Of a stretch of DNA of 46,352 nt, positions 1,297 through 32,049 are shown in pieces (the stretch's first letter is position 1; each line of letters opens with the position of its first letter). The notes below the pieces were generated by a model that was given only the letters and a program-made list of their open reading frames with translations, was not told where the DNA came from and did no database searches. The translations under genes were made by a program, and so were the position numbers. Source of the stretch: Saccharospirillaceae bacterium (GTDB lineage Bacteria; Pseudomonadota; Gammaproteobacteria; Pseudomonadales; Oceanobacteraceae). The stretch covers positions 1-46,352 of the forward strand of contig JAJOJJ010000021.1 in the NCBI GenBank assembly GCA_021208685.1, in the 5' to 3' direction.

Positions 1297-2172
1297 TCAG
1301 GCCTGACGGACTTTTCGACGATTCTCATCCAACAGATTCAGTATCCCCGGTACATCCAGTAAAGCACACATTTCAGAGATTACCGTACCGGCAAGCCAAG
1401 GCCTTTTACTGCCTTCACCGCGCCATTTAATCGAGTCATGAACCAGGGTAACGGTGTCGCAGATTTCCTGACAAGCCAGCGCCCATGGCGAGCGATCCAG
1501 CTGGATAAAGAATCTGTAACCGGCATCATTCAGCCGGATATTACGCTCCGGCATAATCAGCTGGGCGCTATCAATAATCGTGAGCTTTGACGTATCGCCC
1601 TGCCAGACACCTAATGACCAGCTGGCCTGACCAAACAAAGGGGTTACCTTATCGGTGACATTATGGACTCCGCCCAGCAATGGCAGAGGTATCGCCAGTT
1701 TAAGGCCGGCCACTTTAAAAATCAGACAATCAATCCCCTGACTGGATTGCCAGTTAAGCGCTGCCGTTTTTACCGTGGCTGCAGTCAATTCATTGACATC
1801 ATCGCCATCAGACGCTGGAACTTCATGCGCATCTGACGGTATTTCGACATTGTCAGTGACCGCAACCGCAGGCATTTCCGGCAACGGAGACGGAGGAATG
1901 ATGTCGGGATAAGCGATTTTCAACGCAGCGGAAGAATCTGGCTGATCGAAACGGGGAAGAGTGCGTACGTCCGTCACTCTGGCCGGAACCGTTTGCCCGG
2001 TCATCGCCGGGCCAACAGACGCTGTTTGCACCCTCCCGGCTGGCGCCGGTTCAGACCTGATGACCGATATCGGAGCCGTTTCCGTGGCACTGACCAGGAG
2101 CTGATCAAGATAATCCTGAAGTACAAAATCGACCTGATTGGTCAGGCCTGTTTCAGGTTTTATATCAGCCAT
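1297..2172 (-). CDS. parP: ParP-like protein with C-terminal CheW-like domain
   Basis: The preferred ATG (2172) gives 291 residues. The N-terminal two thirds is low-complexity, rich in Pro, Ala and Asp, and carries a short QDYLDQLL motif at about residues 19-26. From about residue 146 there is a CheW-like domain (IDCLIFKVAGLKLAIPLPLL through LDVPGILNLLDE). In Vibrio, ParP has this layout: it binds the ATPase ParC and inserts into the array through its CheW-like AIF domain, tying CheA to the pole. Location between parC and cheW fits. The start overlaps the end of the preceding small gene (ATGGCTGA), which implies translational coupling. A start seven codons further upstream (2193) is possible but less likely. 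Confidence 0.85.
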   Translation of the reverse strand: MADIKPETGLTNQVDFVLQDYLDQLLVSATETAPISVIRSEPAPAGRVQTASVGPAMTGQTVPARVTDVRTLPRFDQPDSSAALKIAYPDIIPPSPLPEMPAVAVTDNVEIPSDAHEVPASDGDDVNELTAATVKTAALNWQSSQGIDCLIFKVAGLKLAIPLPLLGGVHNVTDKVTPLFGQASWSLGVWQGDTSKLTIIDSAQLIMPERNIRLNDAGYRFFIQLDRSPWALACQEICDTVTLVHDSIKWRGEGSKRPWLAGTVISEMCALLDVPGILNLLDENRRKVRQA

Positions 2173-2515
2173 GCAGAGCAGCCTCCGCGACAACAGGAAG
2201 GCAGGCTGCCAGCATGCAGCGCCGCAGCGAAGAATCCGGCAGGCGCCCTATCATACCGAGTGCAATAAAAAGCTGCGTACGCTGTACCGCTGCCTCACCC
2301 TGACCGAGAGGGCGTATAAGAACAGGGGCATAGCCGGGTTTCAGTGTGCTGCTGGCCAGCGCTTCTTGCAGACAATGAGGGCTGACGGCAGAACTCAGTA
2401 ATGCATCCCAATTCACGCCCTGATCGGCAACCTCCCCGTCAGACGCCAACAGGTGATCCAGATAATCATCCAGCGGATTGACCGTTGCCGAGACCTGCCG
2501 GATAGCGCTAGCCAC
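2165..2515 (-). CDS. Unrecognised small protein encoded between parC and parP
   Basis: I do not recognise this protein. With a GTG start at 2515 it has 116 residues. Both ends are coupled to its neighbours: the start lies just before the parC stop (2508-2510), and the stop overlaps the parP ATG. Near the N terminus it carries DDYLDHLL (about 16-23), closely matching QDYLDQLL at the same place in ParP, and the DNA is also similar there. The rest is mostly helical in appearance, with no Walker, CheW or membrane signature. An upstream ATG at 2542 would extend it nine residues and overlap parC further. It may be a ParC-binding helper or a degenerate ParP-like piece. The coupled overlaps argue that it is translated. 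Confidence 0.65.
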   Translation of the reverse strand: MASAIRQVSATVNPLDDYLDHLLASDGEVADQGVNWDALLSSAVSPHCLQEALASSTLKPGYAPVLIRPLGQGEAAVQRTQLFIALGMIGRLPDSSLRRCMLAACLPVVAEAALHG

Positions 2516-3290
2516 GACCAGTATCCGCCACGTCAATTTCACTCAACAAATGCCGGTAAGCACGCACTCCTCGGCCTTGCTCATCCATCTGATGGGGGAA
2601 TACCCCCTCATGACTGGCGTCACGCAAGCGGGTATCCACAGGAATAGCCTCCTGCCACAACGAATCCTGATACAGGCGGCGCATCTCTTTCAGCGTGGTA
2701 ACCGAGGCCAGCGTTCGCCGGTCAAACAAGGTCGGCACGATCAGAAAGGGCAGATTCCGGTTCTGCGAGCGCATCACCATTTTCAGCGTATGAATCATTC
2801 TCTCCAGCCCTTTCATCGCCAGATGTTCCGTCTGGGTAGGAATCACCAGCCGCTGACAGGCGGCCAGAGCGTTAACCAGCAGCACCCCCAGAATCGGCGG
2901 GGTATCCAGCAGGGCGTAATCATAGTCATCCCATAACTGAGCGAGAGAGCGGGCAAGAACCAACCCCATGCCATCCTGGCCACTGACCTGACGCTCCAGG
3001 GTGGCAAGTGAGGTGGTTGCCGGTAATAAAGACACATCAGGCAGACTGGTGGGTTTAATAACCGTTTGAATAAAGGCTTTGTCTTTGTATCGCTGTTCAA
3101 AAAACAGATGATAAAGACTGCGTTCAAGATTGTCCGGGTTCTGCCGGAAATAGCTCGTCAATGAACCATGAGGATCAAGATCCACGAGCAGCACCCGCTT
3201 ACCCTGCTCGGCCAATAAGCCACCCAGCGCAACCACACTGGTTGTCTTGCCGACACCGCCTTTCTGATTTGCTATGGACCAAATCCGCAC
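2508..3290 (-). CDS. parC: ParC, ParA-like ATPase positioning chemotaxis arrays
   Basis: This is a ParA/MinD-type P-loop ATPase of 260 residues. The deviant Walker A motif KGGVGKT lies at about residues 10-16, Walker B-type VLLVDLDPHGSL follows near 40, and a second conserved DTPP segment is near 125. In Vibrio, ParC recruits chemotaxis arrays to the old pole through ParP, and in Pseudomonas the equivalent gene (PA1462) also follows motD. The GTG at 3290 gives MRIWSIANQKGG, matching homologues, and has an AGGGTG ribosome site. The longer ATG version (3362) has no ribosome site and adds an unconserved 24-residue leader. About 90 bases separate it from motD. The older annotation 'Soj' for this family is misleading here. 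Confidence 0.9.
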   Translation of the reverse strand: MRIWSIANQKGGVGKTTSVVALGGLLAEQGKRVLLVDLDPHGSLTSYFRQNPDNLERSLYHLFFEQRYKDKAFIQTVIKPTSLPDVSLLPATTSLATLERQVSGQDGMGLVLARSLAQLWDDYDYALLDTPPILGVLLVNALAACQRLVIPTQTEHLAMKGLERMIHTLKMVMRSQNRNLPFLIVPTLFDRRTLASVTTLKEMRRLYQDSLWQEAIPVDTRLRDASHEGVFPHQMDEQGRGVRAYRHLLSEIDVADTGRG

Positions 3291-3381
3291 GAGTTTCACC
3301 CTGTTTCCAATAAACACGTGACCCGCCAGAGGCCACCCAAAACACTTTCCGCCATTGGACATTGATTAAGCAAAAAGCATG

Positions 3382-4074: not shown

Positions 4075-4811
4075 AACACAATCCCTTGCATCCGATAGCG
4101 CAATGCCATGGGATTAACGCCATGGCGTAATGCGACCACCCCCAGCATCAGGGCTTCATAGTAACGGCTGCGCACGGCCAGACGCTGACGCAGGGTGCTG
4201 CTTAGCGGAATGACAATCAGGTTGGCACTGGCAACGCCATAAAAGGTTGCCACAAAGGCCGTCGCAATGCCGGCCGCCAGCGCTTCTGGCTGCTTAATAC
4301 TGGAAAGCACCTGCATCAGCCCCAGCACCGCCCCGACAATGCCAAGTGTCGGCAGATAACCGGCCAGATTATCCAGCACGCGGAGCAAGTCCTGATCGCG
4401 CTCTTCCCGGCTCTTCATTTCAAGCTGCAGCGCAGACTGCATGGCATCGACATCATTGCCATCCGCCAATAACAGTAAGGCTTTACGGAATAATGGGTCA
4501 GCTTCCGATGCGGCTACTTTTTCAAGAGCCAGCGGACCGTCGCGCCGCAAAGCATGACCACTGGTAGCCAGTTTACTGAGCAGCGAGTCAAGCGAGTATT
4601 GGGGAGGGGCAACCAGCCAAAGCAACAGTTCTCCCAGAGGACGGTATTGGCTGACCGGCAGCTGCGCCAGCGTAGCCAATAAAGCACCACCGAATACAAT
4701 CAGCGCCGCCGGAGGATTCCACAGGGCAGTAAGACTTCCGCCCTCAAGAGAGAAACCGGTCAGTACGGCAATCACTGCCAGCAAGACAGTGACTAACGCC
4801 CAGCGATCCAC
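4071..4811 (-). CDS. motC: Flagellar motor stator subunit MotC (MotA family)
   Basis: MotC is the MotA-like channel subunit of the stator. The 246 residues contain two N-terminal membrane helices (about 5-25 and 31-50), a cytoplasmic loop rich in charged residues, and two C-terminal helices (about 145-170 and 180-205) with the MotA/TolQ/ExbB pattern GYLPTLGIVGAVLGLMQVL. The start is a GTG that overlaps the cheB stop by one base (TAGTG). The stop overlaps motD. Length and context match MotC of Pseudomonas. Ion specificity cannot be told from the sequence by eye, though the neighbouring MotD and family suggest protons. Confidence 0.95.
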   Translation of the reverse strand: MDRWALVTVLLAVIAVLTGFSLEGGSLTALWNPPAALIVFGGALLATLAQLPVSQYRPLGELLLWLVAPPQYSLDSLLSKLATSGHALRRDGPLALEKVAASEADPLFRKALLLLADGNDVDAMQSALQLEMKSREERDQDLLRVLDNLAGYLPTLGIVGAVLGLMQVLSSIKQPEALAAGIATAFVATFYGVASANLIVIPLSSTLRQRLAVRSRYYEALMLGVVALRHGVNPMALRYRMQGIVL

Positions 4812-5861: not shown

Positions 5862-8102
5862 TTATGCGGCTGTCGATTGCCTGGATGAGGCATAACGGGT
5901 CAGCATGCTGGGTATATCAAGAATCAGCGCAATTCTTCCATCACCGGTAATCGTTGCTCCCGCCATACCTGCGGTACCGTGCAACATTTTACCCAAAGGT
6001 TTGATGACCACCTCCTCCTGACCGATAAGCTGATCAACAACGAACCCCACACGTTTGGTTCCGACAGAGACCACCACAACATGCGCTGTTTCATCAGCTT
6101 TTGCATGAGCCTCACCTTTAATCAGCCAACGCTTGAGATGAAACAGTGGGATCGGTTTTTCCCGCACCACCACCACTTCCTGACCATCCACGATGTTGGT
6201 TTTGGTGAGATCCAGGTGGAAAATTTCATTCACACTGACCAACGGGAAAGCGAATGCCTGATTTTTCAGCATCACCATCAACGTCGGCATAATGGCCAGA
6301 GTCAGAGGCACCTTAATGCGAATACCGGTACCGACACCAGGCCGTGATTCAATACTAATGGTACCGTTCAGCTGGGATATTTTGGTTTTAACAACATCCA
6401 TGCCCACGCCACGGCCAGAGACATCCGATATTTGCTCTTTTGTTGAAAAGCCGGGGGCAAAAATCAGATTAAAACATTCATTTTCCGTCAGACGATCCGC
6501 TGCATCCTGATCCATTACGCCTTTTTCTACCGCTTTACGGCGCAATACATCAGCATCCATACCGCCACCATCATCCTGAATAATCAACAGAATGTGATCG
6601 CCTTCCTGCTCGGCAGAAAGAACGACAGTGCCGACTCTTGGCTTGCCATTTTTTTCACGGACATCGGGCATTTCAACACCGTGATCAACGGCGTTACGCA
6701 CAAGGTGAACCAGCGGATCGGCCAGAGCCTCAACCAGGTTTTTATCCAGATCGGTTTCTTCGCCACGTAATTCAAGATTAATTTCTTTTTTAAGCTGGCG
6801 AGCAAGATCACGAACCACGCGCGGGAAACGGCCAAACACTTTTTTAATTGGCTGCATCCGGGTTTTCATGACCGAGGCCTGCAGATCGCCGGTCACAACA
6901 TCCAGATTGGCAACGGCCTTAGCCATTGATTCATCCGTGCTTTTCAGCCCCAGACGAACCAATCGGTTGCGCACCAGCACCAGCTCACCAACCATATTCA
7001 TAATGTCATCAAGACGTTTGGTATCAACGCGCACCGTCGCCTCAGACGCTGCGGCATCTTTATCCGGACGCTTAGCCTCTTCGGCCATCGCAGCTCTGGC
7101 GACGGGAGCCGTGTTGCTTTCCGGTTTGGCCGCTGGCTTGGGCGCAGGTCTGGGCTTAGCCTCGGCTGCCGGGCTGGCATCCGTCGCAGCAACAACCGCT
7201 GGGGCGGCTTCAGCCGCTGGTTCAACCGGCGCAGCGGTTTGTCCCTCGGCAACACTGGAGTGTTTACCTTTACCATGCAGCCGATCGAGTAACTCCTCAA
7301 ATTCAGAGTCACTGATCAGGTCATCGCCGTCAGCGGACACGGCACTGGCGGCCACTTCCGGCTTCGCACTTTCCGCTTTTTTATTGTCGTCCGGCTGGGC
7401 TGTGGCGATCTTACCCTTGCCGTGTATCTGATCCAGCAGCGCTTCAAATTCATCTTCAGTGATCTCATCACTGGAGGCATCAACGCTGTCAGAACCAATA
7501 TCAAAGAAGTCATCTGCGGCAGCCGCTTCGGGCGCAGAAGCCGGTGCTGCTGTGGCTTTTTCCTCATCCAGCGCATCGAGCAGCTGTTCAAATTCGTCGT
7601 CGGTAATATCGCCATTATCGTCAGCGGCAACAGCGTCTTGCGGTTCAGAGTCTGACGGTGCCGGTTCATCGGCAGCCGCATCAGGTTCACCGGCCTGCAC
7701 TTCGTCTTCTGATTCAGGCCGCGCCAGCAAGTGCAGACGTTCAATTAATTCAGGATCCGCCTCGTCGGGCGCCGCTCCTGAGCGCACGCTCTCAAACATT
7801 TCATTAACACTGTCGAGAGCCTGCAGCACCACATCCATAAGATCGGAGTTAACCGTGCGATGTCCGTTGCGCAGTGTGTCGAAAACGTTTTCGGCGGCAT
7901 GACAGCAGTTCACCAGAGGATTAAGTTGCAAAAATCCAGCACCACCTTTTACCGTGTGGAAACCACGGAAGATGGCATTCAGCAGGTCTTTATCATGTGG
8001 GCGTTGTTCAAGATCGACCAGTTGTTCAGAGAGCAGCTCAAGAATTTCCCCGGCTTCAACCAAAAAATCCTGGAGAATCTCTTCATCAGCATCGAAACTC
8101 AT
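5862..8102 (-). CDS. cheA: Chemotaxis histidine kinase CheA (F6 system)
   Basis: CheA autophosphorylates and passes phosphate to CheY and CheB. The 746 residues begin with the P1 Hpt domain, with His49 in RGFHTVKGGAGFL. A long, acidic, Ala/Pro-rich linker (about 130-345) carries three copies of a short E-F-E-x-L-L-D motif. Then follow the dimerisation domain (MNMVGELVLVRNRLV), the HATPase domain (HLVRNAVDHGVE, DDGGGM, GRGVGMDVV) and the CheW-like P5 domain. The linker motifs resemble the LID segment that binds ParP in Vibrio CheA, and parP is encoded in the same operon. It lies 12 bases downstream of cheZ. The long plus-strand frames opposite the linker are artefacts of its composition. Confidence 0.97.
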   Translation of the reverse strand: MSFDADEEILQDFLVEAGEILELLSEQLVDLEQRPHDKDLLNAIFRGFHTVKGGAGFLQLNPLVNCCHAAENVFDTLRNGHRTVNSDLMDVVLQALDSVNEMFESVRSGAAPDEADPELIERLHLLARPESEDEVQAGEPDAAADEPAPSDSEPQDAVAADDNGDITDDEFEQLLDALDEEKATAAPASAPEAAAADDFFDIGSDSVDASSDEITEDEFEALLDQIHGKGKIATAQPDDNKKAESAKPEVAASAVSADGDDLISDSEFEELLDRLHGKGKHSSVAEGQTAAPVEPAAEAAPAVVAATDASPAAEAKPRPAPKPAAKPESNTAPVARAAMAEEAKRPDKDAAASEATVRVDTKRLDDIMNMVGELVLVRNRLVRLGLKSTDESMAKAVANLDVVTGDLQASVMKTRMQPIKKVFGRFPRVVRDLARQLKKEINLELRGEETDLDKNLVEALADPLVHLVRNAVDHGVEMPDVREKNGKPRVGTVVLSAEQEGDHILLIIQDDGGGMDADVLRRKAVEKGVMDQDAADRLTENECFNLIFAPGFSTKEQISDVSGRGVGMDVVKTKISQLNGTISIESRPGVGTGIRIKVPLTLAIMPTLMVMLKNQAFAFPLVSVNEIFHLDLTKTNIVDGQEVVVVREKPIPLFHLKRWLIKGEAHAKADETAHVVVVSVGTKRVGFVVDQLIGQEEVVIKPLGKMLHGTAGMAGATITGDGRIALILDIPSMLTRYASSRQSTAA
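7263..7607 (-). repeat. Three copies of an acidic E-F-E-x-L-L-D motif in the CheA linker
   Basis: Within CheA, residues 166-178 (ITDDEFEQLLDAL), 214-231 (ITEDEFEALLDQIHGKGK) and 263-280 (ISDSEFEELLDRLHGKGK) are copies of one motif separated by 30 to 36 residues of Ala/Pro/Asp-rich spacer. The second and third also share the HGKGK tail, which the first has lost. In Vibrio the related linker segment, called LID, recruits CheA to ParP at the pole. Three copies would allow multivalent binding; this is inference. Confidence 0.8.
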
Positions 8103-21837: not shown

Positions 21838-22182
21838 TTACAGCATGCCCTGCAGCAGGGTTTCGACTTCGAGATACTCTGCCTCAATGGCAGCAATCAG
21901 GGCATCAGCACCGGCCAGCAGCTCTTCCCGGCCTGCCATTTCCAGCTGGTAACACAGTTTTGCCAGCACATTGGCACTGATGTTACTGCTTGCGCCTTTA
22001 AAGCTGTGCGCCAGTTCGCGTAACTGTTTGGCATCCTGCTGCTGCAGCGCCTGAGTCAGTAATGGCAGGCGTTGCCGTGAATCTTCGATATAGACCTGCA
22101 TCAGGTCAGAAAATTCATCATCCATAACTTCCCGGAGCATATCCAGTGACTCAAGGTCAAAGTGCTCTGCCAGCGACATCAT
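21838..22182 (-). CDS. hptB: Histidine phosphotransfer protein, HptB-like
   Basis: This is a stand-alone Hpt domain of 114 residues with phospho-accepting His59 in LAHSFKGASSNI. In Pseudomonas HptB takes phosphate from hybrid sensor kinases and passes it to the response regulator HsbR, steering swarming and biofilm choice. Here it is translationally coupled to the HsbR-like gene: its ATG overlaps the stop (ATATGATG) and a GGGAG site lies just upstream. A longer frame starting at 22209 would overlap the partner further and is less likely. The gene name rests on context and family similarity. Confidence 0.85.
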   Translation of the reverse strand: MMSLAEHFDLESLDMLREVMDDEFSDLMQVYIEDSRQRLPLLTQALQQQDAKQLRELAHSFKGASSNISANVLAKLCYQLEMAGREELLAGADALIAAIEAEYLEVETLLQGML

Positions 22183-23897
22183 ATTCTCCCATCCAGTGTT
22201 TGCGGCCATCGTATCACCGCTTCAACGATATTGCCCCTGCCCTGATATTCCAGCGATTCACAAATCTGACTGACCAGTGGAATACCCCGGCCACTGTATT
22301 GAGCCGGGGTCGATTCTCTCCGCTCAGTTAACAGCGGTGCAAAATCAAAACCCGGGCCACTGTCTTCTACCCGCAAAACCAGTCGGCCGCTGCGGCCATC
22401 GCCACTGTGCTGCATGTGCACAATCACGTGTCCTTCTGTCAGCGCGGCCAGCCGCGCTTCACGCTCCTGATAATATTGCATAAACCCATCAGAAGAGCGC
22501 TTCAGTTCCGATTTCAGCCCCAGGACTCCGTGCTCAAAAGCATTCGAGAATAATTCGGCCATGACCGTATACAGTTGCCCGCCCATAACCCGTAATCCGG
22601 GAACTTCCATCATGATGTGAATCATCAGGGGTAACGGATTAAAATTTTTCAGCGTTTCCGGCCCAAGATGATACGACATCTGCCAGTCGGTCGGACCGGA
22701 TAACGGCCCGGAAGTGAGCTGCAGTGCAATATCCTCCAGCTCATATTCTTCAATCATGCGCAGTTCAAGCAATGTGGTATCGTCATCACGTGCACTGTCG
22801 GCAATAAAATCCGCCAGAGCATGCTGAATGTCATCGAACACATGCTGCGGATCGTCCGCTGCGGTGAATACGCGGCGTAAGCGATCTTCGCCAAACATTT
22901 CCCCGTGCGGATTGCGCGCTTCAATAATGCCATCCGACCAGACAAACAGGCGGTCACCACTGCCCATCGGAAATTCCGTCAAGGTATCGTTAAACTTCTC
23001 GTTACTCAGCACCCCGAGGGGTAAATGCTTTGATTTCAGGCTTTCAACATGGCCGCTGTCACCACGCAGCATATAACAATCGGGTACTCCCCCCATCCAG
23101 ACGCTGGCGGATTTCCGGTCAAAATTCAGATCCACAACCACCGCACAGCAAAAAAAGCCAACCGGTAAAATACCTTTCAGCTTGAGATTTATTTCCCGCA
23201 GAATATCGCGCAGGGCAAAGCCTTTTGCCGTCATCCCATAGAAAATCTCTGCCAGTGGCATTGCGCCAATCGCTGCCGGTAAACCATGGCCGGTGAAATC
23301 CCCCAGCAATACATGCATTCCCCCTGCCGGTTTACGGGCGGCAAGCAATACATCGCCATTAAAAACCGCCAGAGGTGAAAGCATATAGCGAATATTAGGG
23401 GCTGAAAGGCAACCGGCATGAGCGACGTTGTCAAACACCGCCTTGGCGACGTGCTGCTCATGCAGCAGATGTTCATTATTACTGGCAATGGTATCGCGCT
23501 GGCGCTGAACGGTGCGGTGCATTTCGCGCATGCGGTAAAAGGAGCTGATTTTTGCCTGCAGAATAATGTGGTTATAAGGCTTACTGAGAAAGTCATCTCC
23601 TCCTGATTCCAGACAGTCTGCGAGACTCTGTGCATCGGTCAGAGAGGTCAGAAAGATGACGGGAACAAAATCCTCACCGGCATCCGCTTTAATACGACGC
23701 GCGGCCTCACGCCCGTCCATGACCGGCATCATGACATCCATTAGGATGATGTCAGGGCGGTGCTGGTCAAATGCCTGAATGGCTTCAAGGCCATTCTCGG
23801 CTTCCATTACCTGAAAGCCCTGATTACGCACTATGCGCGAAAGCACCATGCGGTCAATCTGATTATCATCCGCAATCAGGACTTTGATAGCATCCAT
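22179..23897 (-). CDS. hsbR: HsbR-like response regulator with PP2C phosphatase and anti-sigma-type kinase domain
   Basis: The 572-residue protein has three parts. The receiver domain (1-120) has its acceptor Asp in IILMDVMMPVMDG. The PP2C/SpoIIE phosphatase domain (about 170-380) has metal-site motifs GDVLLA, LLGDFTGHGLPAAIG, FVWSDGIIEA and DDTTLLEL. A C-terminal HATPase domain (about 430-570) carries ELFSNAFEHGVLGL, VEDSGPGF and YSGRGIPLV. This is the architecture of Pseudomonas HsbR, which both phosphorylates and dephosphorylates the anti-sigma antagonist HsbA depending on its own phosphorylation. All key motifs are intact. It lies between hsbA-like and hptB-like genes, making a complete partner-switch set. 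Confidence 0.87.
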   Translation of the reverse strand: MDAIKVLIADDNQIDRMVLSRIVRNQGFQVMEAENGLEAIQAFDQHRPDIILMDVMMPVMDGREAARRIKADAGEDFVPVIFLTSLTDAQSLADCLESGGDDFLSKPYNHIILQAKISSFYRMREMHRTVQRQRDTIASNNEHLLHEQHVAKAVFDNVAHAGCLSAPNIRYMLSPLAVFNGDVLLAARKPAGGMHVLLGDFTGHGLPAAIGAMPLAEIFYGMTAKGFALRDILREINLKLKGILPVGFFCCAVVVDLNFDRKSASVWMGGVPDCYMLRGDSGHVESLKSKHLPLGVLSNEKFNDTLTEFPMGSGDRLFVWSDGIIEARNPHGEMFGEDRLRRVFTAADDPQHVFDDIQHALADFIADSARDDDTTLLELRMIEEYELEDIALQLTSGPLSGPTDWQMSYHLGPETLKNFNPLPLMIHIMMEVPGLRVMGGQLYTVMAELFSNAFEHGVLGLKSELKRSSDGFMQYYQEREARLAALTEGHVIVHMQHSGDGRSGRLVLRVEDSGPGFDFAPLLTERRESTPAQYSGRGIPLVSQICESLEYQGRGNIVEAVIRWPQTLDGRI

Positions 23898-24414: not shown

Positions 24415-25452
24415 TCAGACTGCGGCTGCCAGCATCAACTCGGTTATCTTGCTCAATGGCGCAATTTTATCAACAGCACCAAGGTCTGCGGCTGCTTTAG
24501 GCATGCCCCAGACAACACTGCTTGCTTCGTCCTGCGCCAGCGTGTAAGCCCCCGCATTATGCAAACGCTGCATCGCCTTTGCGCCATCAGCCCCCATCCC
24601 CGTCAACATGACAGCGACCAATCGCCTGCAATCAAATACTTCAGCCAGATCATCAAACATCACCTCAACCGATGGCCGGTGACGGTTCACTTTTTCACCC
24701 TGATCCAGCACACAAAAGTAACTCTGTCCCTCGCGCCGAAAGCGCAGATGATAATCACCATGAGCGATAATCGCGCGCCCCGGGCGAACCTCAAGACCAT
24801 TGCAGGCTTCGAGCACTTCAATGGCCATGCTGCGGTCAAGCCGCATGGCAAGCGATGCACTGAAAACCGCCGGGATATGCTGCGTGATCACAATCGGGGG
24901 ACAATGTGCAGGCAAACGGCTCAAGACATCACGTATCGCTTCCGTACCACCGGTTGATGAGCCAATCGCAATCCAGCGACGATACTGAACGGAAGTGTCG
25001 GCCACCGGTAAGGGTCTTAATACTTTGGCGGAGCTGAGTGGCTGAACTCTGGCATGAGCGGCCATTCGTACTTTTTCGGTCAGTGCGGATGCAAACGCCA
25101 GAAAACTCTGCTCATTCTGAGCCTGGGGTTTGGTAATGTAATCAACGGCCCCCATTTCAAGGGCATCCAGCGTTGCCGGTGCTCCGGCCTCCGTTAATGT
25201 TGAGACCATAACAACCGGCATGGGTCGCAAACGCATCAGGTTATTCAGAAACTGCAGACCATTCATGCGCGGCATTTCAACATCCAGTGTCAGTACATCC
25301 GGGTTCAGCTGTTTAATTTTATCCCGGGCGATGAACGGATCGGCTGCCATACCGATAACTTCGATATCGTCCGTTGCATCAAACACCTCTTTCAACATTT
25401 TCCGGATAAGTACGGAATCGTCGATAATCAGCAATCTGATCTTCTTGCTCAT
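24415..25452 (-). CDS. cheB: Chemotaxis methylesterase CheB (second, F7-type operon)
   Basis: This second CheB has 345 residues: receiver domain (IIDDSVLIRKM at about 8-18, acceptor in LTLDVEMPRMNG near 56) and methylesterase domain with catalytic Ser in AIGSSTGGTEAI, His in IVITQHIPAVFS and Asp in LTGMGADGAKAM. It is the last gene of the che operon that starts at 32749. It is clearly diverged from the CheB at 4811-5830, so it is a separate system and not a recent duplicate. It follows cheD by eight bases. Confidence 0.95.
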   Translation of the reverse strand: MSKKIRLLIIDDSVLIRKMLKEVFDATDDIEVIGMAADPFIARDKIKQLNPDVLTLDVEMPRMNGLQFLNNLMRLRPMPVVMVSTLTEAGAPATLDALEMGAVDYITKPQAQNEQSFLAFASALTEKVRMAAHARVQPLSSAKVLRPLPVADTSVQYRRWIAIGSSTGGTEAIRDVLSRLPAHCPPIVITQHIPAVFSASLAMRLDRSMAIEVLEACNGLEVRPGRAIIAHGDYHLRFRREGQSYFCVLDQGEKVNRHRPSVEVMFDDLAEVFDCRRLVAVMLTGMGADGAKAMQRLHNAGAYTLAQDEASSVVWGMPKAAADLGAVDKIAPLSKITELMLAAAV

Positions 25453-25460
25453 AAAACCTC

Positions 25461-26114
25461 TCAGAACAGATCAATGGTGCCGGCATCGGAAACCGCCGGC
25501 TGAGATACCGACCTCTGATACGCTGCCTCACGAACAATAAGGGTATCATTCTGAAGCTGTTTAATACGGCGGACTTTAACCGAGCCGGTGTCAGGAAAAT
25601 AAAGCACCTTACGGGCAACAGCATCACCCACATCCGCAGCACACACTGTAATATTTTCATTCGCCAGATAACTGTATGCAAACAGAATATTCCGCTGGCC
25701 GATATCGCTCATTGAAGCAATCATCTGGCCACCACCAAACAGCTTAACCTCAAGATTTTCACGCCGTCCGCCACGTTTAAGAATTTCATTGATCAGATAT
25801 TCCATCGCCCAGTTACCATATCGTGATGCATGCGTTGAGGGATTGCTGCCCCAGACATCAGAAGAGTGATCTCCCTGTTCCGGCAACATAAAATGATTCA
25901 TTCCTCCAATGCCCTTAACACGGTCACGAATGCAGGCAGCAATGCACGAACCAAGTACCGTCACAATCATTTCGCCATGAGCAGAGACATAAAACTCACC
26001 GGGGAGAATTTTGGCAGCCCAGGTCTGATGAACATTATCCCAATAACGATTTACATGCTCAAAGCCAGCACTGACAGGGGGCTGAACTGAACGTCCGGGC
26101 TGAATTGTCGTCAT
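25461..26114 (-). CDS. cheD: Receptor glutamine deamidase CheD
   Basis: CheD deamidates glutamines in chemoreceptors and can be controlled by CheY-P. The 217-residue product has the catalytic Cys in VTVLGSCIAACIRD (Cys57), His in GGMNHFMLPEQ (His74), and the following conserved RYGNWAMEYLINEILKRGG and VKLFGGGQM segments. Its start overlaps the cheR stop (ATGA). The order cheR-cheD-cheB is the same as in the Pseudomonas che2 system. A short C-terminal tail ends in IDLF. Confidence 0.95.
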   Translation of the reverse strand: MTTIQPGRSVQPPVSAGFEHVNRYWDNVHQTWAAKILPGEFYVSAHGEMIVTVLGSCIAACIRDRVKGIGGMNHFMLPEQGDHSSDVWGSNPSTHASRYGNWAMEYLINEILKRGGRRENLEVKLFGGGQMIASMSDIGQRNILFAYSYLANENITVCAADVGDAVARKVLYFPDTGSVKVRRIKQLQNDTLIVREAAYQRSVSQPAVSDAGTIDLF

Positions 26115-26968
26115 TTTATTTTCCGGTAGATTGTATTACCCAGGGATTCAAACCGATCTGTCACTCCTGATAAATTTTCTGAATGCCCTATCATCAGATG
26201 CCCGCCAGCAGGCAGAAGATCTGCATACCGGTCAAAAAGGACACGCTGTGTATCTTTATTAAAATAAATAACCACATTTCTGCAAAAAATTATGTCAAAT
26301 GGTCCTTTTATCGGCCAGCTTTCAAGCAGATTAAGCCGCTTGAAATACACCAGATTCCGGATTTCATCTTTCACCTGAACAGATCGCTCATCACGGCTTT
26401 TAAGAAAGAAACGCTTAACCAGCGGCGGATATAAGCCTTCAACATCAGAGGCCGGATAAACTCCGGAGCGACCAGTATCCAGCACATTGGAATCGAGATC
26501 AGTAGCAAGAATTTTTATATCCCAATCCGATGGAAAACCAACCTGACGCAGAGTCATTGCGATTGAATAGGCTTCCTGACCAATTGAACAACCTGCAGAC
26601 CAGATACGCAGACGCTTCCTGTCTTTATTGGCAAATCTCAGTTGTGGAAACAATGTTTCTTTCAAAAAGCTGAAATGATGCTCTTCGCGGAAAAATGACG
26701 TCAGATTGGTCGTCAGCGAATTAATGAACTCGCTCGACTCCGCCTCCATATTATTTTCAAGGTAATCCAGATACTGGCGGAAATCAGAGAAACCATGCGC
26801 TCTGACCCGGCGGGCAATGCGGCTGTAAACCATATTCCGCTTATGATTTCCCAGAACAATGCCGGTCAGATTTCCGGCCAGATGGGCAATCTGGGCAAAA
26901 TCTTCGTCCGTCATCAGAAATTCACGGACTTCACCATCGCTTCCGGCCGCCGCCGTTGGAATTGTCAT
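26111..26968 (-). CDS. cheR: Chemotaxis methyltransferase CheR
   Basis: CheR methylates receptor glutamates with S-adenosylmethionine. The 285 residues include the N-terminal helical domain (AHLAGNLTGIVLGNHKRNMVYSRIARR). The catalytic domain has LTTNLTSFFREEHHF, the SAM-binding LRIWSAGCSIGQEAYSIAM, KILATDLDSNVL and FDIIFCRNVVIYFN. It is the only CheR in the window. The receptor encoded directly upstream ends in a CheR-tether-like pentapeptide, which suggests the two proteins work together. Confidence 0.96.
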   Translation of the reverse strand: MTIPTAAAGSDGEVREFLMTDEDFAQIAHLAGNLTGIVLGNHKRNMVYSRIARRVRAHGFSDFRQYLDYLENNMEAESSEFINSLTTNLTSFFREEHHFSFLKETLFPQLRFANKDRKRLRIWSAGCSIGQEAYSIAMTLRQVGFPSDWDIKILATDLDSNVLDTGRSGVYPASDVEGLYPPLVKRFFLKSRDERSVQVKDEIRNLVYFKRLNLLESWPIKGPFDIIFCRNVVIYFNKDTQRVLFDRYADLLPAGGHLMIGHSENLSGVTDRFESLGNTIYRKIK

Positions 26969-26979
26969 ATCCGCAGAAA

Positions 26980-29328
26980 TCAGAACTCAGCCCACTCAGC
27001 ATCATCGTCTTTCACCGACAAACCGCTGGTTCTCTGCCCAATGACGTGTCCGCTGCTTTTCATGGCAGACTTAGCCGCCGGCACAGAGGAGAGTGCAGGG
27101 GATGACTGGCGCTGATGCCCATCAACACTGAAAAACTCCATCATATGCAACATCGACTGTGCCTGTTCCGCCATGGCTTCACCGGCAGCCGATGCCTCTT
27201 CAACCAGCGCCGCATTCTGCTGGGTCATTTCATCCATCTGCGCGACTGCACTGTTAACCTGTTCAATACCCGACGACTGCTCTTTGGCTGCCGTGCTGAT
27301 TTCCTGAATCATCACAGACACGCGATCTACCGCCTGAATAATTTCGCTCAGTGTTTTTCCTGATTCGTTAACCAGCGATGTACCTGCGTCAACTTTATCA
27401 ACGCTGTCACGGATCAGATCTTTAATCTCTCTCGCTGCACCGGCAGAACGCTGGGCAAGATTACGGACTTCACCGGCAACGACAGCGAATCCACGTCCCT
27501 GCTCACCCGCTCTTGCCGCTTCAACAGCAGCATTCAGCGCAAGCAAGTTAGTCTGAAAAGCAATTTCATCGATGACACTGATAATGTCTGCAATTTTTTT
27601 GCTCGCTGCATTAATTTCGTCCATCGCGACAACCGCTTTACTCACCACCTCACCACCGAGCTGGGCTTTTTGCTTAGCCGAACTGGCAAGCTCATTCGCA
27701 TGCACTGAATTTTCGCTGGTTTGCTTAACAGCACTGGTCATTTCTTCCATGCTTGAAGCGGTTTCTTCAAGACTGGATGCCTGAGATTCTGTTCGCTTAC
27801 TCAGATCAGCATTACCCTGAGCAATTTCACTGGCACCGGTTGAAACCGTCGACGCGGCTTCGCGGATACGGGTAATAATATCCGTCAGACGGTCAACGGT
27901 GGCGTTAGCATCCTGTTTTAGTTTATCGAATGCGCCCTGGTACTCATCGTCTATTTTACGGGTCAGATTACCATGAGCCAGAGCGTCAAAGACCCGGATC
28001 GTATCGCTGATAACGCTGTCGGATATGGTCAATAATCGATTCAGACCTTCTCCCAGCTTGAGGAAGAAACCTGATTTTCCGTTCATCGCGATACGCCTTG
28101 ATAAATCACCAGCAGACGCAGCAGCAACAATCTGATCAATTTCCTGCTCAGCAGCGACTTCCTGTGTACGATCCTTCCATTCAACAATTGTGCCGATACG
28201 CTTACCATTCACATCAAACCAAGGCTGAGCCGTCAGTGAAAACGTAAGGTCTGAAACTGTGATTTCCGTTTTGAATGTGGATGACAATGATTCCAGAAGC
28301 TTTCTCTGATGAGCCGGACTTTTATGAAAAGTATCGATGTTGGTGCCAACCAGTGATGATGCATCAAATCCGCGAATAGCCTGACTGAGCTGGGATTGAT
28401 AAGAGGACATCATTGTTTTAACACTGTCATTCATGTATACGATATTAAAATCATTATCCGCCAGCATGACGTTGGCTTCACATAACGTCAGTGCACTGGC
28501 ACAGTTTGCACTGAACAGATTTTTCCGATCTGCCATCACTTGCGCAGTAATGTCTGATGCATATTTGACAACCTTGAAGGTTTTTCCATTCTCATCAAGG
28601 ATCGGATTGTAAGAAGCTTGCAGCCACAATTCGCTGCCATCCTTTCTCAGACGTTCGTAGGTACCGGCATCATACATACCGTTGCCAAGCTTCTCCCAGA
28701 ATGCCTTGTATTCCGGCCGTTCAGAGGCAGATGACGGTAAAAAAATCCGGTGGTGTCTGCCAACAATTTCGTCAAGACGATAGCCGGTTGCTGACAGGAA
28801 ATTATCGTTTGCAGTTAATATTTCACCCGTCGGAGTAAATTCAATAACCGCCTGACTTTTCCCGATGGCATCGATTTTTGCGCTCATTTCGCGCATGCTG
28901 TCAGCGTACTCTTTGGCGCTCTCTTTCTGTCTGGTTATATCGGAAGCATATTTTACAACTTTGTACGGCTTACCATTGCTATCCATCACCGGATTATATG
29001 AGGCCTGAATCCATATCGGTTTGCCGTCTTTACCAATACGCTGATACTCAGCCTGATGAAATTCTCCCCGTTTCAGGATACTCCAGAACTCCCGGTACTC
29101 ATTACTGTCACGATACCCAGCATCGACAAACATGCTGTGATGCTTGCCTTTTATTTCATCCAGGCGGTAACCGACAACACTCAGAAAGTTATCATTGGCA
29201 TCCTGAACAATCCCGTCCATCGAGAATTCAATTCTCGCCATACTCTTATCCAGAGAAGACTGAACAGCTTCAAGTTCTTTTTCCCGCTGACTGCGTCCAA
29301 AACTGATAAAACGGCTGAAAACGTTCAT
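26980..29328 (-). CDS. Soluble chemoreceptor with three PAS domains, HAMP and MCP signalling domain
   Basis: The 782-residue methyl-accepting protein has no membrane segment and so acts in the cytoplasm. PAS domains occupy about 25-137, 138-265 and a more divergent 270-400. A HAMP-like region spans about 400-490, and the signalling domain about 500-735 has the tip [38 protein letters not shown]. It ends in EWAEF, matching the x-W-x-x-F pentapeptide that tethers CheR in some receptors; Pseudomonas Aer2/McpB of the che2 system ends in a similar GWEEF. The first two PAS domains are clearly related to each other. The ATG at 29328 has a strong AGGAGAT site. Ligand (redox, oxygen or another) cannot be told by eye. 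Confidence 0.93.
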
Positions 29329-29371
29329 AACTATCTCCTTTAAATGCAGACCTGAAACCGACGGGATGATT

Positions 29372-29884
29372 TCAATCTGCGATATGGCCAGTATTTTCAA
29401 GACTTCCTGATATGCTGAGAAGCTCGTTCACATCCAGAAGAATGACCATTTTTTCATTTACATTAACCAGACCTTTAATAAATCCGGAGTTTTTATCTTC
29501 TGTCAGTTCCGGTGGCTTTCGGGTTGACGAACCGGAAATGGTATACACATCAGAAACAGCATCCACGACAATTCCCATAACACGCTCGCCATGTTCACGT
29601 TCGATCTTAAGTATGATGACGACCGTAACCGGGCTGTACTCAACGCTGGACAAACCAAAGCGTATGCGCAAATCCATAATAGGGACAATGGTTCCGCGCA
29701 GATTGATGACTCCACGAATATAGTCAGGAGCATTAGGAATCAGTGTTGATTCTTCCCAGCCGCGAATTTCCTGAACAGCCAGAATATCAACACCATATTC
29801 TTCATCAGACATCATAAACGTCAGATACTGCTGTTCATCGGCATCGGCTGACTCATTTTTTCCTGTTATTGCTAGCGCTTCCAT
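29372..29884 (-). CDS. cheW: Chemotaxis adaptor CheW (F7-type operon)
   Basis: This is a single CheW domain of 170 residues with [21 protein letters not shown] near the N terminus, the signature [24 protein letters not shown] at about 50-73, and [12 protein letters not shown] near 100. It follows cheA by eight bases and precedes the receptor gene by 43. It is distinct from the CheW at 646-1128. Confidence 0.95.
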
Positions 29885-29892
29885 AGAGTTCC

Positions 29893-32049
29893 CTATGCAG
29901 CCTGCTCTGAACGAGACTGCCCTTTTCCAGATTTTTCCAAGTTTTTACCGACATCGGACACATCGATGATCAGCGCCACCGTGCCATCACCAAGAATGGT
30001 CGCACCTGAAATCCCGGCAACCCGCTGGTAATTTTGTTCCAGACTTTTGATAACGACCTGTTGCTGACCGAGCAAGTCATCGACAACGATACCAACTTTC
30101 TCATTATCGCCTTCCACCACGACCAGCATCGGGTTTTCAAACTCTTCATCATTACTGCGGAGATTAAAGAATTCATCAAGACGAATAATCGGAATGTATT
30201 CATCACGCAGTTTCATAACATACTGACTGCCTGTTACATGGTTCAGCGAACGCTTCTGAAGCTGAATTGACTCAACAATTGAAACCAGCGGGAATATATA
30301 CGTCTCATTTTTTACTTTAACCAACTGACCATCAAGAATGGCCAGAGTAAGAGGCAGCCGGATAATAAATGTTGACCCTTTTCCGCGCACCGACTTCACT
30401 TCGATATTGCCATTTAATTCGGCAATATTACGCCGGACGACATCCATACCTACGCCACGCCCGGAGATATCGCTGACGACGTCAGCCGTTGAAAATCCGG
30501 GCAAAAATATCAGCTGATGTATTTCTTCGCTGCTCAGTTCCTGAGTTTCAGGAACCAGACCCTTTTGCCGGGCTTTATGCAGAATTCGTTCTTCATTGAG
30601 ACCGGCGCCGTCATCTTTCACTTCGATCACAATATTCCCGCCCTGATGATAGGCATTCAGGGTAATGGTGCCTTCCGCCGATTTTCCGCTGGCCAGACGT
30701 TGCTCCGTGGTTTCCAGTCCGTGATCCAGCGAATTCCGCACAAGGTGTACCAGCGGATCACCGATCTTTTCCATCACCGTTTTATCCAGCTCGGTATTCT
30801 CGCCAAGCATGACCAGATTGACCTGCTTTCCAAGCTGGCTGCCCAGATCACGCACCAGACGCGGAAAGCGGCTGAAGGCAAAACTGATGGGCATCATGCG
30901 GATTTTCATCACACTTTCCTGCAACTCGCGGGTATTCTGTTCCAGCTGGGTCAGACCTTCCTGTAACCGTATCAGACGGCTCATATCAAAATCCTGACCC
31001 AGTTCACCCAGCATCGACTGGGTAATAACCAACTCGCCTACCATGTTAATAAGGCTATCGACTTTATCGATGGAAACCCGGATTGAGGAGGGCTCGCTCG
31101 ACCTGGCCGTGCGCGCAGATACCGATGGTTTGCTCTTTTGAGCAGCGGCAATTTCAAGCGCTTCTGATATTTTTTCCGGAATCAGCGTGGCTGTTCGTCC
31201 GCTATCTATCTCTGCCGGAGGAATGCCGTTTTCACGCTCAGCGGCTGATTTCTGCTCCGCTCCGGTCCTGATTTCAGGTGTGTCATCATGCGTGTTTTTC
31301 AGGGGCGCAGCACACAGCGGCTGATAATCAATATGACAGTCGTCTGCTACCCATTCAAAGACGCTGGCGATGTCATCACGGCTGACGTTGCTACGGATTT
31401 CAAGAATCCAGCTGAGGTAGCAATTTTCGGGAGTCAGGCTGGTAAATTCCGGTAAATTGTCCGTAACCGGAATCACCGTCAGATAATCGGCACCCACCAG
31501 CTCCTGTAATTCCCGCAGCATACGGAATGGCTCATTGCCGGTTTGTAAAATATCTTCGGATGGATTGAAGATGATGCGCCAGCCGCTTTCAGTCACGTCA
31601 GCGGTTGTGGTGTTGCCGGTGTCTGAGGGTAAATCCTGTTCTGCTGAATCGGCAGCGGATGTGCCTTGAAGAATGTTTTCAAAACTGCCTTTTAGGGTGG
31701 CAGCTCTTTCCATGTCAGGTTCCGATCCGGCCTGAATACTGCTCAGCATGGCTCGCAGACAGTCAACGGATTGCAGAAATAAATCGATGTAGCTCCGTTG
31801 CATGGTGCGGGTGCCGCTGCGGATTTCATCAAGCAATGTTTCCAGAACGTGGGTAAATTCTGAAACCTGCATAAATCCAAAGGTACCTGCTCCACCTTTT
31901 ATTGAATGTGCGGCACGAAAAATGGTGTTAACACTTTCAGCATCGACTTCCTGCGGTTGCAGTTCAAGTAACTGGCTTTCCATCACATCCAGACCTTCAA
32001 AGCTTTCTTCGAAGAAAATCTGGTGAAACTGCGAAAGATCAATGCTCAT
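29893..32049 (-). CDS. cheA: Chemotaxis histidine kinase CheA (F7-type operon)
   Basis: This second CheA has 718 residues: Hpt domain with His48 in RAAHSIKGGAGTFGF, a middle region (about 145-275) that looks like a folded P2-type or accessory domain, the dimerisation domain (INMVGELVITQSML), the HATPase domain (HLVRNSLDHGLE, DDGAGL, GRGVGMDVV) and the CheW-like C-terminal domain. It lacks the E-F-E-x-L-L-D motifs seen in the other CheA, so it is unlikely to be placed by ParP in the same way. It lies four bases after cheY and eight before cheW. Confidence 0.96.
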   Translation of the reverse strand: MSIDLSQFHQIFFEESFEGLDVMESQLLELQPQEVDAESVNTIFRAAHSIKGGAGTFGFMQVSEFTHVLETLLDEIRSGTRTMQRSYIDLFLQSVDCLRAMLSSIQAGSEPDMERAATLKGSFENILQGTSAADSAEQDLPSDTGNTTTADVTESGWRIIFNPSEDILQTGNEPFRMLRELQELVGADYLTVIPVTDNLPEFTSLTPENCYLSWILEIRSNVSRDDIASVFEWVADDCHIDYQPLCAAPLKNTHDDTPEIRTGAEQKSAAERENGIPPAEIDSGRTATLIPEKISEALEIAAAQKSKPSVSARTARSSEPSSIRVSIDKVDSLINMVGELVITQSMLGELGQDFDMSRLIRLQEGLTQLEQNTRELQESVMKIRMMPISFAFSRFPRLVRDLGSQLGKQVNLVMLGENTELDKTVMEKIGDPLVHLVRNSLDHGLETTEQRLASGKSAEGTITLNAYHQGGNIVIEVKDDGAGLNEERILHKARQKGLVPETQELSSEEIHQLIFLPGFSTADVVSDISGRGVGMDVVRRNIAELNGNIEVKSVRGKGSTFIIRLPLTLAILDGQLVKVKNETYIFPLVSIVESIQLQKRSLNHVTGSQYVMKLRDEYIPIIRLDEFFNLRSNDEEFENPMLVVVEGDNEKVGIVVDDLLGQQQVVIKSLEQNYQRVAGISGATILGDGTVALIIDVSDVGKNLEKSGKGQSRSEQAA

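Follow-up and report, generated by a model that had tools for sequence, protein, structure and literature searches.

A conserved small gene between parC and parP encodes a candidate ParC-docking adaptor for a second chemosensory array

Between parC and parP, in the chemotaxis operon of a 46,352-nucleotide stretch of DNA from a Saccharospirillaceae bacterium (the whole stretch analysed here, referred to as the window), lies a small gene whose product carries a ParP-like N-terminal motif and whose occurrence is tied to a second chemotaxis cluster. We tentatively propose, from its sequence and distribution, that the small protein may well be a bipartite adaptor, which would dock on ParC and serve the second chemosensory array.

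Position and reading frame of the small gene

The features of the main chemotaxis operon considered here are the following:

1297..2172, minus strand: parP, encoding an N-terminal motif, a variable linker and a CheW-like AIF domain
2095..2118, minus strand: motif QDYLDQLL, residues 19-26, in the ParP N terminus
2165..2515, minus strand: small gene, 116 aa, GTG start, putative ParC-docking adaptor
2171..2293, minus strand: predicted C-terminal helical hairpin of the small protein (helices 75-90 and 96-115, LPxSxL signature; pLDDT of the block 75-89)
2447..2470, minus strand: ParP-like motif DDYLDHLL near the N terminus of the small protein (residues 16-23), recognised by the ParP-N HMM and profile comparison
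2508..3293, minus strand: parC, ParA-type ATPase (the ORF as listed starts upstream, at 3362)
5862..8102, minus strand: cheA1, with three EFE[AEQ]LLD repeats between the Hpt and dimerisation domains

As read from the ORFs of the window, the small gene runs from a GTG at 2515 to a stop codon at 2165-2167 (116 codons) and overlaps each neighbour by 8 nt, the parC stop codon lying at 2508-2510 and the parP ATG at 2172. A preliminary description of this DNA had claimed that a 116-codon frame exactly fills the gap between parC and parP and overlaps both, which was borne out. The gene order on the minus strand is cheA1, cheB1 (named from its sequence, without a family search), a MotA-like gene, a MotB-like gene, parC, the small gene, parP, cheW1 and a DUF2802 gene. 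As is typical of parP, the small gene adjoins parC within the chemotaxis operon, with exceptions in three genomes (G090, G151 and G749).

Conservation and selection

A protein search gave a match in 19 of 55 genomes, the window's own included. A survey anchored on parC covered 44 genomes of the window's family (Thalassolituus/Oceanobacter/Oleispira, f1), of which 41 had a chemotaxis parC; the three omitted from the count (G058, G060 and G029) held only a distant ParA, the chemotaxis parC being absent from the assembly. Reading of the DNA behind parC revealed a frame of about 100-160 codons with the motif in this slot in 36 of the 41 genomes, so that homologues with a conserved reading frame do exist; in the other five (G004, G012, G027, G062 and G064), parP directly follows parC. 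Named loci place the family at Thalassolituus, Thalassobium, Oceanobacter, Oleispira, Oleibacter, Bacterioplanes and Parathalassolituus, and the small gene was present in 20 of the 23 assessable ones, which share species with the surveyed genomes and are not independent of them.

Pairwise comparison within a close set, comprising the window and three near relatives, gave the small gene a dN/dS of 0.04-0.13 in the four pairs out of six with estimable dS; the corresponding values were 0.14-0.19 for parP, over six pairs, and 0.002-0.012 for parC. A second set of more distant relatives gave 0.10-0.31 for the small gene in three pairs out of six. All these figures are rough because synonymous sites are near saturation. 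The small gene is thus a real, conserved gene under purifying selection. The preliminary description had taken it for a real operon gene and had suggested the comparison of dN with dS, and both the conserved slot frame and the dN/dS values agree with it. A frameshifted piece of parC or parP was rejected, as the small gene has a separate frame in each carrier read.

The ParP-like N-terminal motif

The motif of the small protein and that of ParP were said to lie at the same distance from their starts; the distances are near but not identical (residues 16-23 and 19-26, respectively). The matching DNA described in both motifs, GATTATCT-N-GATCA, was indeed present, and 18 of the 24 bases agree over the whole motif. 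When an HMM of 80 ParP N-termini was run against the 589 ORFs of the window, ParP ranked first (14.1 bits) and the small protein second (9.2 bits), followed by an ORF at 2.4 bits. With the same HMM, 43 of the 45 members of the small-protein family, which include near-identical pairs and locus L158, scored at least 5 bits, versus 14 of 9000 shuffled copies, and the best match fell on the motif in all 45. This HMM excluded the window's family, the slot carriers then known outside it (G039, G091 and G125) and L158; it included G090, whose small gene sits elsewhere. Comparison of the ParP-N and small-protein profiles by hhalign aligned the two motifs with a probability of 93.2% (P = 2.9e-7). Judged on sequence alone, the small protein has an N-terminal segment with the ParP motif, and the likeness exceeds chance.

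A segment of the Y-L-D-x-L-L type was observed near the start of ParP throughout the order and in named Alteromonas, Marinobacter, Vreelandella, Colwellia, Pseudoalteromonas and other loci, with the Tyr and the last Leu kept in at least 90% of 49 such N-termini. In an alignment of 32 small proteins (A1), the motif Tyr (Tyr18) was the sole invariant column, and Leu22, Leu40, Leu86 and Leu92 were near-invariant. The ParP peptides and the ORFs of one small-protein set had been chosen with a loose motif pattern; in slot ORF lists unfiltered by motif, the slot-filling frame of each carrier of the window's family bore the motif, including the variants YLFSMF and YINNLL.

At genome scale the signal was less sharp. 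A ParP-N profile search of the window's genome ranked ParP first (E = 0.0024) and the small protein second (E = 0.33); among 17 carriers searched, 11 yielded the small gene at an E-value of 5 or lower, and in 7 it came second to ParP, a result that weighs against the adaptor reading. No genus-wise co-variation between the ParP and small-protein motifs was detectable (867 of 5040 permutations were equally good).

In Vibrio, the N-terminal domain of ParP mediates the interaction with ParC and polar recruitment, as described in the available part of PMC5706961, which assigns ParC binding to this domain and does not name the motif itself. The preliminary description had suggested comparing the motif with the ParC-binding part of ParP; it corresponds to the motif of the very domain that binds ParC in Vibrio, according to the same partial source. 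A third component that would dock on ParC is the natural reading of this likeness.

Domains and predicted fold of the small protein

The rest of the small protein did not resemble ParP. It differs from ParP in length (116 versus 291 aa in the window) and in having neither a C-terminal CheW-like AIF domain nor a Pfam match: no match was found in Pfam at E up to 1, nor in NCBIfam or PHROGs, and 32 relatives gave no match to CheW at E up to 0.1, whereas ParP itself does match CheW. Pfam matches among the relatives were at chance level (best E = 0.043), a PDB sequence search gave a best match at E = 0.21, and a tblastn search of plasmids with the small protein gave no match. An AlphaFold model built from 20 sequences (mean pLDDT 70.5, pTM 0.43) predicted a short helix over the motif (residues 14-22) and the hairpin 75-90/96-115, the latter being better supported and the model weak outside it. 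As the best Foldseek match to this model reached only E = 2.4, we make no claim on the fold. Members found outside the slot at L119 and L120 end in a second LNDLLxLxxLxR tail, which is absent from the slot members of alignment A4.

Distribution beyond the window's family

Eleven genomes from two other families of the same order (f6 and f7) also carry the small gene, one of them weakly. It occupies the slot in f7 genomes G039 and G091 and in f6 genomes G125, G716, G644, G625, G765 and, weakly, G783 (12.6 bits), and lies outside the parC-parP slot in the f6 genomes G090, G151 and G749. Searches of the order covered 194 and then 390 genomes, matches being followed by reading of the loci. At least 32 of the 390 genomes matched, of which 13 were kept in the window's family, 2 in f7 and 7 in f6. 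Five matches proved to be ParP N-termini themselves (G054, G072, G086, G159 and G192), and five others were taken as chance (G136, G213, G615, G663 and G669), four of these loci having no parC, parP or cheW match and that of G213 being the one left unread. A class-wide search of 369 genomes listed, besides the window, two weak matches, both with internal stops and taken as chance. Since the 390-genome and class-wide searches scored the best 12 candidates per genome at most, these counts are lower bounds; the small gene of G765 was recovered solely by reading its slot.

Outside the window's family, parP directly follows parC in 39 of the 42 assessable genomes of the order survey (a paralogue, L114, and a contig end, L115, being omitted) and in 54 of 55 named loci (L134, without parC, being omitted). 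The claim of the preliminary description that other genera have no extra gene here was thus broadly right; Pseudomonas and Vibrio, the genera it had named, were not among the loci checked by name. The exception among the named loci is L158, from an Oleiphilaceae MAG, in which a 101-residue frame (2167-2469, plus strand) fills the slot and has IIEDYLDALF near its start; recognised by position and motif only, it is either a diverged member or a second origin. In a tree read without support values, the window's family and f7 grouped together with f6 not far away, which is compatible with an old origin of the small gene plus losses.

A second ParC-like ATPase (49% identity) was observed at L114 (G090:C1:168900-171700) and at G151:C26:95762-96517. 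That of G090 has no parP behind it and a further CheA nearby.

Co-occurrence with a second chemotaxis cluster

The window contains a second chemotaxis cluster, spanning 24415-32049:

29893..32049, minus strand: cheA2, without EFE[AEQ]LLD repeats
29372..29884, minus strand: cheW2
26980..29400, minus strand: mcp2, PAS-PAS-HAMP-MCP receptor with no evident transmembrane stretch, by hydropathy only
26111..26968, minus strand: cheR2
25461..26114, minus strand: cheD, the marker for the co-occurrence test
24415..25452, minus strand: cheB2

Adjoining it (22179-23897, minus strand) is a gene for a response regulator fused to a SpoIIE phosphatase and HATPase domain, relatives of which adjoin the same cluster in several families.

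The presence of the small gene follows that of this cluster in all three families, a tie that the preliminary description had missed and that sets the small gene apart from parP. The cluster was found in 47 of 47 carriers versus 1 of the 17 non-carriers examined. Within the window's family, CheD was detected in all 36 carriers, at E = 1.2e-85 or better except in G055, where a partial match close to the start of a contig reached 7.8e-28; three of the five non-carriers had none, and the other two had only a distant paralogue (36% identity, and 29% with stops). The best CheA of these five reached no more than 43% identity and the best CheR no more than 37%, versus a CheR at 53-88% in the nine carriers tested. 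Three of them have small genomes (2.8-2.9 Mb), so that their co-loss may partly reflect general reduction.

All 22 genomes of f6 were searched with CheA2, twelve of them being read after the idea of co-occurrence had been formed; G606, which has no CheA, was omitted from the count, and non-carrier status rests on slot reading. CheA2 was found at 49-67% identity in the 9 carriers, while 11 of 12 non-carriers (G038, G663, G784, G201, G785, G700, G177, G682, G786, G222 and G732) had no CheA2 above 45%. The remaining non-carrier is G781, whose CheA2-like protein (53% identity over the kinase core and 45% overall) belongs to a cluster of different gene order. The two f7 genomes examined both carry the small gene, with CheA2 identities of 65% and 58%. 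Fisher's test gave 1.3e-6 for the window's family, 3.4e-5 for f6 and 3.5e-14 together, values that assume independent genomes, which related genomes are not. The added f6 test supports the adaptor reading; G781 weighs against it.

In the three genomes with the small gene outside the slot (G090, G151 and G749), it lies 4-5 kb from cheA2. Its positions and those of cheA2 are 4245-4577 and from 8595 in locus L245, 14778-15206 and up to 10863 in L246, and 7117-7404 and from 12672 in L247. Its neighbours include an MCP gene in G090 and G151 and an ODP-family gene in G749; in the latter genome (L223, 1471-2547, minus strand), the small gene is directly behind this gene, which is on the same strand and encodes a metallo-beta-lactamase fold.

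The reverse does not hold throughout the order. Among 38 genomes of other families (including G104, whose slot was unreadable), 13 have a CheA2-like protein (at least 51% identity over the aligned part) and the small gene was not found in the slot. The cluster regions of 12 of these 13 (L233-L244, four being cut by contig ends) held no ORF resembling the small protein; three ORFs (in L238, L243 and L244) reached 4.5 bits with the motif model, one of them being CheW2. The cluster thus does not always need the small protein, which counts against the adaptor reading.

Proposed role and alternative explanations

In the mechanism that we propose, the N-terminal helix of the small protein (Y-L-D-x-L-L) would be the peptide with which ParP docks on ParC, the polar ParA-type ATPase, and the helical domain at the C terminus would recognise a component of the second system (the soluble PAS receptor, CheW2, CheA2, CheR2, CheD or CheB2). 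ParP joins the main array to ParC via its AIF domain and the LID region of CheA, as reported for Vibrio, where ParP ties the array to ParC through AIF, receptors and the LID (available parts of PMC5706961 and PMC7534058). The small protein would tie the second array to this ParC as well, and a single polar ATPase would then position two arrays. Three points are inferred: that the small protein binds ParC, which partner it has in the second array, and that it positions this array at the pole.

The LID region has been reported solely from organisms with ParC and ParP, and it binds the ParP AIF domain (PMC7534058, available part). The three CheA1 repeats, at residues about 170, 218 and 267 and with HGKGK after two of them, are perhaps such a LID region, judging by their sequence. 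CheA2 has no LID-like repeats, so the second array would need another link to ParC. The acidic LL-type helices of the LID belong to the same proposed interaction network as the small protein; unlike this AIF-binding region, the small protein is similar to the N terminus of ParP.

The main rival to the adaptor reading is a regulator of the first array, which would dock on ParC, compete or form mixed dimers with ParP and tune ParC dynamics without a cargo of its own. We regard it as rather unlikely. Motif and operon are common to the small protein and ParP, and in Vibrio the ParP N terminus, which a proline-rich linker separates from the AIF domain, mediates dimerisation (PMC5706961, available part). 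A Lys or Arg within at most 14 residues before the Tyr was found in 20 of 35 small proteins versus 96 of 108 ParPs, as a docking peptide without ATPase stimulation might look; the difference is suggestive only, since many small proteins have a shorter stretch there and the sequences compared are related to one another. Such a regulator would leave unexplained both the co-occurrence with the second cluster and the adjacency to it in three genomes.

It is improbable that the YLDxLL helix is instead a peptide for another shared partner, such as CheY. The N terminus of FliM and the C terminus of CheZ are CheY-binding peptides, and similar acidic-LL helices occur in the window's FliM (IDALLHGVD, fourth of the 589 ORFs with the ParP-N HMM) and in the CheA1 repeats. 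FliM reached only 1.9 bits, versus 9.2 for the small protein, and the ParP domain with this motif binds ParC in Vibrio (PMC5706961, as far as available).

Still less probable is a bridge from ParC to the polar landmark HubP/FimV. According to the available part of a review, ParC and HubP do not interact directly and the linking factor in Vibrio is unidentified (PMC7534058), so that a factor is missing. The presence of the small gene follows the second cluster, not ParC, and most ParC/ParP genomes from beyond the three families showed no such gene at parC-parP; its product therefore cannot be a general HubP link.

Finally, a decayed or chance partial copy of parP, raised in the preliminary description and suggested by the common motif and its agreeing bases, can be set aside: selection is purifying, not relaxed, the carriers that were read have open frames, the two alternative frames contain 4-7 stops in the four small genes tested, and the C-terminal half is conserved in alignment A1 and unlike ParP.

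Relation to known systems and significance

With ParP of Vibrio and other gammaproteobacteria, the small protein shares the YLDxLL-type motif at the N terminus and a gene directly after parC in the same operon. In Rhodobacter sphaeroides, the ParA-type ATPase PpfA and its partner, the receptor TlpT itself, position a cytoplasmic soluble-receptor array. The arrangement proposed here differs in that the partner would be a separate small protein and that ParC would be common to the main array. The roles of the other two chemotaxis systems of Vibrio cholerae are described as poorly understood, and the polar position of cluster III does not depend on clusters I and II (PMC7534058, available part). 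The accessible portion of the ParC/ParP and Thalassolituus chemotaxis literature, which leaves out some of the main ParC/ParP papers, makes no mention of a gene at this position, an absence that argues only weakly for novelty.

ParC and ParP are known so far for positioning one array. It is possible, and we hold this slightly less firmly than the adaptor role itself, that ParC serves two arrays via two adaptors with a common docking peptide, one of them being ParP, for the membrane array, and the other the small protein, for the soluble-receptor array. If true, this would show one ATPase handling two cargos, with Tyr18, Leu22 and Leu23 as testable residues, and a docking peptide common to two adaptors would amount to a portable ParC-targeting signal.
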